Source of the DNA: Prevotella sp.
GTDB taxonomy: Bacteria; Bacteroidota; Bacteroidia; Bacteroidales; Bacteroidaceae
Direction of reading: 5' to 3'
DNA: 44,932 nt
Assembly (NCBI GenBank): GCA_017460765.1
Contig: JAFUAK010000270.1
Location: forward strand, 1 to 44,932
Shown: piece by piece, positions 31,551 through 32,608 of the stretch
How positions within the stretch are numbered: position 1 is the first letter of the stretch
How the letters are laid out: each line of letters opens with the position of its first letter
Translations under genes and position numbers: made by a program
Notes under the pieces: model-generated
Database searches by the model: none
Told to the model about the DNA's origin: nothing
The model's input: the letters and a program-made list of their open reading frames with translations, nothing else

Positions 31551-32608
31551 AACTTCGGACTGGGTATCTGGTCGATCAGTTTCTTCACAAGCCAAGAGAC
31601 GACGAGCGTCGCCACGACATAGAGTAGCAGGCCCGCATACATATCATCACGGATATAGGGCCTGACGAAGATCTTGCGCACCAACGGGTGCATCACGAAG
31701 ATAACGGCAGAGATATTACCCAGCCAGAGGATATAGGGCATGAGCGACTTGGGTATCAGTTTCACCAAGGCAATCGTCCCTATGACGATGAAGACAGGCA
31801 CCCACAGCCAGAGGTGAGGCGTGAAAAACGAAAACAGGAACGCAAGGATTACACAGGGGGTCAGGAACGTTGTGTAATTTTGCGGGAAATTACACAACGT
31901 TCCTGACCCCCTGTGTAAACGGGCGAAGAGGACGCCGAGGCCGAAGGGCAGCATACCGCCGACGAAGTTATAGCGCAGACGCTCCAACGTCTCCATATCG
32001 TCCAGATACCACACCTGCCACAGCCAGCAGACGGCAATCAGAGCCACGACAACGCCCCAGTGGCGCCAGCGATAGAACACCAAGCGATAGAGCAGATAGA
32101 GTTGCAGCGTGACGCTGAAATACCAATAGGGCCCGGGCCACACGACCTCCGAGGGGTGCTCGAAGAAATTGGCAAACATACCCAGCATGCCAACCACCTC
32201 CAGCCACGTATAGCGGTGCATGCCTGGCGTGATGGCATCGAACATCACAAAGAGCACGAATCCCACGATGAAGATGCGGAACAACTTCAGGTAGTTATAG
32301 CGGAAGAATCGCCAGATGCCCACCTCGGGCAGAGAGTCATACTTCATCACCAGGCCGAAACCACTGAGGAAGAGGAACACGGGCACACCGTAATGTCCGA
32401 AGAAAGAGATCAGATGCATGGGCAGGAACTCGTCTGGCTGCTGGATCACCGCCCAGAGCCTGTCACACTTCCACTGCTGCCACGTGTACTCGTTCTCACG
32501 GACGATATCTTTCAGCCAGTGACAGTAGTTGTGGAGCATAATGCCCAGGATGGCAATGCCCTTCATCGCCGTACACTCCTCCCGTGTCAGAAATTCTTCA
32601 CTCTTCAC
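31547..32608 (-). CDS. Acyltransferase family 3 membrane protein carrying an in-frame palindrome
   Basis: 353 aa integral membrane O-acyltransferase-like protein. MKGIAILGIMLHNYCHWLKD carries the family His. PVFLFLSGFGLVMKYDSLPE and the ISAVIFVMHPLVRK near the C-terminus match the family. It probably acetylates a cell-surface glycan. Start: a GTG at 32608 overlaps the upstream stop (GTGA) and lies inside a heptamer repeat; the ATG at 32566 is an alternative. Residues about 231-254 (LHRGSGTLCNFPQNYTTFLT and onward), in a loop between membrane helices, are encoded by a perfect 32-bp inverted repeat. They look like a late insertion that kept the frame open. Confidence 0.75.
   Translation of the reverse strand: MKSEEFLTREECTAMKGIAILGIMLHNYCHWLKDIVRENEYTWQQWKCDRLWAVIQQPDEFLPMHLISFFGHYGVPVFLFLSGFGLVMKYDSLPEVGIWRFFRYNYLKLFRIFIVGFVLFVMFDAITPGMHRYTWLEVVGMLGMFANFFEHPSEVVWPGPYWYFSVTLQLYLLYRLVFYRWRHWGVVVALIAVCWLWQVWYLDDMETLERLRYNFVGGMLPFGLGVLFARLHRGSGTLCNFPQNYTTFLTPCVILAFLFSFFTPHLWLWVPVFIVIGTIALVKLIPKSLMPYILWLGNISAVIFVMHPLVRKIFVRPYIRDDMYAGLLLYVVATLVVSWLVKKLIDQIPSPKL
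31849..31918. repeat. Perfect 32-bp inverted repeat inside a coding sequence
   Basis: Arm 1 (31849-31880) begins TTACACAGGGGGTCAGGAAC and arm 2 (31887-31918) is its exact reverse complement. A 6-base loop (TGCGGG) lies between them. It is entirely within the acyltransferase gene and is translated without a stop. It looks like a REP- or RPE-type palindromic element rather than normal coding sequence. Flanking bases do not extend the symmetry, and I see no obvious target duplication. Confidence 0.95.

Follow-up and report, generated by a model that had tools for sequence, protein, structure and literature searches.

A REPIN-like palindrome of probable RAYT/TIRYT type read in frame within a Prevotella acyltransferase gene

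The window studied here, a 44,932-nucleotide stretch of Prevotella DNA, carries within a membrane acyltransferase gene a perfect palindrome that is probably a non-autonomous, REPIN-like mobile element of the RAYT/TIRYT type, tolerated in permissive protein loops. The element belongs to a dispersed repeat family (family A) whose units have the hairpin layout found in the flanks of RAYT genes. Copies lie in frame in conserved genes, and the encoded peptide is absent from most of the orthologues inspected.

Table 1. Coordinates of the palindromic element and its host gene in the window
Feature	Position	Strand	Remarks
Palindromic element, inverted pair of family-A hairpin units	31849..31918	.	70 bases
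Left arm	31849..31880	+	32 nt; contains unit TTACACA-GGGGGTCAGGAACGT-TGTGTAA
Central loop, 6 nt	31881..31886	.	Centres vary among copies in the same genome
Right arm	31887..31918	-	32 nt; exact inverted copy of left arm
Host gene, Acyl_transf_3 membrane acyltransferase, 353 aa	31547..32608	-	Reads through the element

An inverted-repeat search confirmed the initial annotation's description of two 32-base arms that are exact reverse complements around a 6-base loop (100% complementarity; Table 1). Among repeats with arms at most 80 nt apart, this is the strongest in the window, the runner-up measuring 17 nt at 94%. No second copy of the arm was found elsewhere in the 45-kb window or in shuffles of it. 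The very stable mid-gene hairpin that had been proposed is borne out by RNA folding of the coding strand, which predicts -58 kcal/mol, and the element is indeed translated from end to end without a stop, as LHRGSGTLCNFPQNYTTFLTPCVI in the host frame. Only two of its six frames are open, and the host gene reads one of them. The sequence GGGGTCAG in the left arm matches the published TIR motif GGGGWSAS, and the window element as read has neither a GTAG/GTGG tetranucleotide at the hairpin base nor a CGTC tag. At the left edge of the window (positions 1 to 89), there are also A/T-rich inverted repeats (AAAAGGTAAAAA / TTTTTACCTTTT).

The host reading frame was assigned by a profile search (PF01757, Acyl_transf_3; E = 3.7e-19, residues 14 to 341). 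A match to the gene was present in 185 of the 299 genomes searched, and we inspected 29 further loci. In these, the position of the element corresponds to a variable segment that runs from 'LPFGxGVLFAR' to the next hydrophobic segment. All 29 lack the element peptide at that site, and their loops are not shorter: in the nearest orthologue (G199, 77% identical), 360 codons align with 352 in the window gene, which indicates that sequence was replaced and not simply added. Judging from the alignment, the element has taken the place of the ancestral loop and perhaps of part of a helix. As to the suggestion that the site could tolerate an insertion, the loop is naturally variable and the peptide is missing from the 29 orthologues; the amendment is replacement instead of mere addition. 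No clean empty site was seen among these loci, whose loops vary in length and sequence even in the 77% identical relative.

The arm is not unique in its genome (G000; a 2.69-Mb draft in 305 contigs, 79.3% complete), as the initial annotation had anticipated for a mobile repeat. The first 21 nt of the arm gave 19 matches with at most three mismatches at 12 places, compared with none for the reversed control, and a degenerate copy on contig C83 brings the places to 13. Ten of these 13 lie within called genes and can be read through; the three others (C74:1781, C111, and C265) lie outside. Curated models match eight of the ten genic hosts, and the window acyltransferase is a ninth. Named hosts include RsmF (rsmF), a GSCFA protein, a bifunctional fucokinase, a glycyl-radical activase, a CshA/DbpA-like DEAD helicase, CbiE/CbiT, HemW (hemW), and isochorismate synthase. 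In the rsmF and GSCFA copies, TGTGCAA replaces TGTGTAA and the other arm is changed to match; both copies are read in a frame in which the common form carries a stop. Across the genus, near-exact units occur in 27 of 398 genomes including G000 (26 of the 397 others) and in 5 of the 175 more complete ones. The reversed control matched seven times in six genomes, so a few of the hits in the 26 genomes may be due to chance. An exact 18-mer of the arm was absent from the viral contigs searched. Three of five exact 18-mer hits in contigs (L020, L022, and L023; two of them actinobacterial) have no surrounding unit and look like chance matches.

In every palindrome, a unit of ~30 nt, NNNCACA-xGGGG[A/T]CAGGAACGx-TGTGNNN, is present as an inverted pair; within the unit, a stem of variable sequence (NNNCACA/TGTGNNN) encloses a GGGG[A/T]CAGGAACG loop. 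The variable stem positions covary. Of 67 distinct family-A-type units, 38, 34, 28, and 32 show complementarity at the first, second, third, and fourth pair outside CACA/TGTG, compared with 23.8, 20.0, 18.0, and 27.7 expected with shuffled partners (permutation P = 0.0001, <0.00005, 0.002, and 0.08, respectively), in a set that includes a few apparent chance matches and with statistics that ignore relatedness. Beyond the unit, the bases are specific to each locus yet mirrored across the dimer. In 18 dimers (that of C265 being paired with its nested extra arm), flank positions 1 to 5 match in 17, 18, 12, 11, and 10 cases versus 8.7, 7.2, 5.4, 6.1, and 4.5 when flanks are re-paired, and from position 6 outward the symmetry is not significant. 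Dimer centres and outer flanks vary from copy to copy in G000, which argues against simple copying of one master dimer. Four dimers with 60-nt cores in G103 have a common asymmetric inner part at the centre. The arms of some family copies carry mismatches. A direct flank repeat of at least 5 nt was present in 1 of 16 dimers, versus 0.9 in shuffles, giving no sign of target-site duplication. Two elements (L182:2617-2720 and L183:2425-2525) have a truncated extra arm end joined directly after GGGGTCA(G), as though a more recent unit had inserted into an earlier one at its conserved core.

Paired and single units differ in their location. Dimers lie inside called genes in 17 cases and outside in 5, and singles and tandems in 9 and 35 (P = 1.3e-5 by Fisher's test), as counted with a purpose-made codon-usage gene caller that over-calls (97 to 98% of the window coding), with copies C140 and C83 (the latter open on the opposite strand too) reassigned from single to dimer after sequence inspection, with genic singles that resemble chance matches or gene ends (L308, L322, L324, C58, and C173) retained, and with the four G103 dimers of common ancestry not being independent. 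In the other genomes, 11 places are inside genes and 19 are not (a hand count of 30 classified places of about 42 listed). The genic dimers there are located in a PLDc protein, a DUF6057 protein, a GSCFA protein, a Peptidase_C25 protein, two glycosyltransferases, and a DBI_PRT (CobT-type) protein. Among 15 dimers treated as genic, one of which (L187) is elsewhere called intergenic, 12 have cores whose length is divisible by 3 (P = 2.9e-4). Over 16 dimers, 54 of 96 frames are open, and the frame filter is therefore real but not severe.

The layout of the units links them to Y1 transposases. We found one such gene in G000 (C275:595-951), which scored above the cut-off for PF01797 and matched NF047646 under its cut-off. 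It is flanked by a sister unit, B (TCACAG..AGGGACGGTTCTTTTTGTGCAC), that has the layout of the arm with a different sequence. A search of G000 for unit B gave 27 matches, of which three surround the RAYT gene; the control gave 1. The unit-B sequence reads AGGGACGG, which does not strictly fit GGGGWSAS, whereas the family-A sequences (GGGGTCAG / GGGGACAG) do. The 23 groups of family B in G000 comprise 5 inside genes, 6 overlapping gene ends, and 12 in intergenic regions; the one inverted unit-B pair away from the RAYT gene lies in frame in sufS. To widen the comparison, 40 fetched loci and 18 more were reduced to 38 distinct long RAYTs with a YIHQNP motif, within about 300 nt of which there are 77 [A/G]GGG[A/T]C[A/G]G cores. 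Stems of at least 5 pairs surround 49 of these cores and stems of at least 6 pairs surround 38, compared with re-paired expectations of 12.4% and 6.0%, although the 77 units are not independent because each RAYT gene has several. The stems include AATCTCACA/TGTGAGATT, GGAATCAA/TTGATTCC, GATGTAACA/TGTTACATC, and CTGACA/TGTCAG; for the most part, the loop and the closing CA/TG are kept, and the other stem positions vary freely while remaining paired. The remaining 28 cores have a stem of less than 5, including all of those at the RAYT of the nearest relative (L328, in G199). The repeats around that gene have GGGGTCAGGCCCC cores without the usual stem and represent another variant. Three RAYTs were scanned for a C-terminal helix-turn-helix, and only a weak hit in one of them was obtained.

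Among the RAYT loci examined, which cover part of the genus, none bears the exact family-A arm or GGGG[A/T]CAGGAACG in its flank. The sole near match, at L113, has one mismatch and is not convincing as the cognate gene. As G000 is 79% complete, the cognate RAYT may be missing from the assembly. The expectation of a Y1/RAYT gene in the genome was thus realized as to its presence and the layout of its flanking repeats, with the exact cognate not found. In a separate case (L135:2863-4312, contig C137 of G013), two inverted GGGGACAGGAACC units ~1.4 kb apart bracket an ATPase-like gene, with a Walker motif seen by eye, and not a transposase; mirror-image flanks extend beyond these units (GCGTAACGCAGTG/CACTGCGTTACGC).

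Taken together, we consider that units of this kind form the terminal inverted repeats of RAYT/TIRYT Y1 transposase genes and are paired in the window element in a REPIN-like arrangement. An HUH/Y1 transposase probably recognizes loop and stem shape in the single-stranded hairpin and would spread units in trans, perhaps as pairs; the transposition chemistry and the cognate enzyme are inferred. Insertions that break genes would be lost, while in-frame, stop-free copies in structurally permissive loops would persist and be translated as a probably inert stretch of ~24 residues. Fold-back or template-switch events at the hairpin may also reshape copies in place, as suggested by the mirror-image flanks and variable centres. 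Against this explanation stand the lack of a family-A RAYT among the loci examined, of a target duplication, and of a clean empty site, the presence of only one RAYT in G000, and the variation of centres and outer flanks among the G000 copies. The initial proposal of a mobile repeat thus gains from the dispersed copies and the RAYT-flank-like layout, and the resemblance turns out to be to TIR/TIRYT repeats and not to GTAG REPs, with transposition itself presumed.

A different account, possible but distinctly less probable, is that transposition spreads single units, whereupon fold-back or template-switch synthesis at a unit generates the perfect palindromes on the spot by copying that unit, together with a few adjacent bases, in the opposite orientation. 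Locus-specific flanks mirrored out to five positions in 18 dimers are what such synthesis would leave, as are centres that vary among the G000 copies, arms that are near-perfect although the copies differ from one another, and the lack of a direct target duplication. The asymmetric inner part common to the four G103 dimers is instead expected from one master dimer, and REP doublets elsewhere have been proposed to move as doublets (PMC3116915). We regard it as improbable that the element is a MITE derived from a classical DDE insertion sequence and has no relation to RAYTs: it is short, palindromic, dispersed, and without a transposase of its own, as a MITE would be, but the unit layout matches RAYT flanks and target duplication is at the level of chance (1 of 16 versus 0.9 expected).

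The hairpin's predicted stability (-58 kcal/mol) could also befit an RNA or DNA signal selected within genes, such as a terminator, an mRNA stability element, or a regulator site. This seems equally unlikely, since the host genes are unrelated, the positions and reading frames differ, and most orthologues inspected lack the element. Still less credible is an assembly artefact, i.e., chimeric inverted joins in metagenome-assembled genomes. G000 is a 305-contig, 79% complete draft, and two other unit-bearing genomes are recorded as metagenome assembled, yet the reading frame of conserved genes is preserved on either side of the repeat, other genomes likewise contain palindromic pairs belonging to the family, and some copies have mismatched arms. 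The element as a mobile, RAYT-linked palindrome remains our preferred explanation.

Parts of this picture are already known, namely, in-frame palindromes (Rickettsia palindromic elements and intragenic REPs), TIRYTs with GGGGWSAS repeats, and REPINs. Di Nocera et al. described TIRs, TIRtrons, and TIRYT transposases in 2013 (PMC3733652, cited here from its available text), and the resemblance extends to the GGGGWSAS motif, the inverted repeats flanking a Y1 transposase gene, and the dispersed single and dimeric copies. As far as that text describes TIRs, the units here differ in being hairpins with covarying stems whose dimers are mostly in frame in genes; a transposase gene flanked by the same repeat was found for sister family B and not for family A. 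Quentin et al. (2018) relate TIRYTs to their subclass 2.1, for which the available portion of the article reports no REP-like sequences (PMC6006769). Going by the same portion, the RAYTs studied here have the YIHQNP motif of subclass 2.6 and a length nearer that of 2.1. Like the REPINs of Bertels and Rainey (2011; PMC3116915, available text), the window element has two inverted units in one hairpin, is RAYT linked, and is non-autonomous. REPIN doublets are described there as randomly distributed in extragenic space; the dimers studied here, in contrast, are mostly genic (17 of 22 in called genes) and have no GTAG tag. With Rickettsia palindromic elements and intragenic GTAG/CGTC REPs (as presented in the accessible text of PMC3733652), it shares a palindromic structure, often as dimers of 20 to 30 codons, in frame in functional genes. 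It differs from them in its phylum, in lacking GTAG/CGTC in the window element, and in having TIR-type relatives beside RAYT genes; Rickettsia elements are set apart here by tag and description. The Rickettsia-like behaviour originally envisaged is upheld as in-frame insertion in conserved genes; the CGTC tag is absent from the window element. The literature searched, which leaves most subscription journals outside its coverage and is thus weak evidence, contained no earlier description of this family. What differs from known systems is a TIR-type unit in the form of a covarying-stem hairpin, dimers that are mainly genic, and loops reused by unrelated palindromes.

These findings place Rickettsia-like palindromes in functional genes of the Prevotella group, far from the obligate intracellular bacteria where they were first seen. 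The Prevotella group is abundant in the gut and rumen. The findings also tie the behaviour to a group of Y1 transposases for whose flanking repeats no REP-like structure was assigned in the part of the source available (PMC6006769). Two questions become testable: whether protein loops draw raw material from selfish palindromes, and why paired and single units differ in location.

To compare host loops, eight host segments were searched in 11 relatives. Of the aligned orthologues of nine host genes, a single one, GSCFA in G103, has a family-A-type element at the corresponding site, largely as the insertion hypothesis had predicted. Sister-family or unrelated palindromes are present in a few more, and the remainder have neither. 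The GSCFA loop contains three different palindromes in three genomes (the G000 element, a GGGGACAG variant in G103, and a B-like GGGGGACGGTTCTTTTGT pair in G031). The RsmF loop has a B-like pair in G018, and the CbiE/T loop has a degenerate B-like palindrome in G103 (seen by eye; low score) and another degenerate palindrome in G018. Where G000 has a family-A element in fucokinase, G129 (L205) has an unrelated 102-nt palindrome of the CCCTCTCC...GGAGAGGG type, also in frame. None of ten HemW orthologue loops examined has a palindrome. In the five of the eight searched host genes that were scored, 5 of 45 non-own loops reach a palindrome score of at least 15 (entered as 5 of 50 in the test itself), compared with 6 of 840 100-nt windows drawn at random from these loci; the RsmF loop itself accounts for two of the six. 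As a precedent for shared sites, the available text of PMC3733652 reports different REPs near the same recB site in two Xanthomonas.

Tentatively, a small set of permissive loops in core enzymes of Prevotella-type bacteria may be landing pads common to many unrelated mobile palindromes. Paired RAYT/TIRYT hairpin units and other palindromes would repeatedly invade, overwrite, and degenerate in the same loops of different species, and palindrome remains might thereby account for much of the loop-length diversity of these enzymes, with the paired form genic and singles mainly extragenic. If so, this placement would be the reverse of that of classical REPINs.

Other hairpins were seen in the acyltransferase loop. 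A scan of 29 genes, counting the window gene, in which there are none, found TTCCCA..TGGGAA-type hairpins there in 8, and a further gene, L169, also has them; they lie in frame in L152, L154, L157, L159, L162, L163, L165, L168, and L169, mostly as arrays of three at a 22-nt pitch, with a single hairpin in L165. Among 28 other acyltransferase loops, only that of L162 has a palindrome score of at least 15. We rejected these hairpins as RAYT repeats, as L339 alone had them among 88 locus ids scanned, in the form of a similar triple array. Finally, in a gene that by eye resembles an acyltransferase relative of the window gene, a lone unit sits in frame in another loop (L320:1565-1599, contig C11 of G324).
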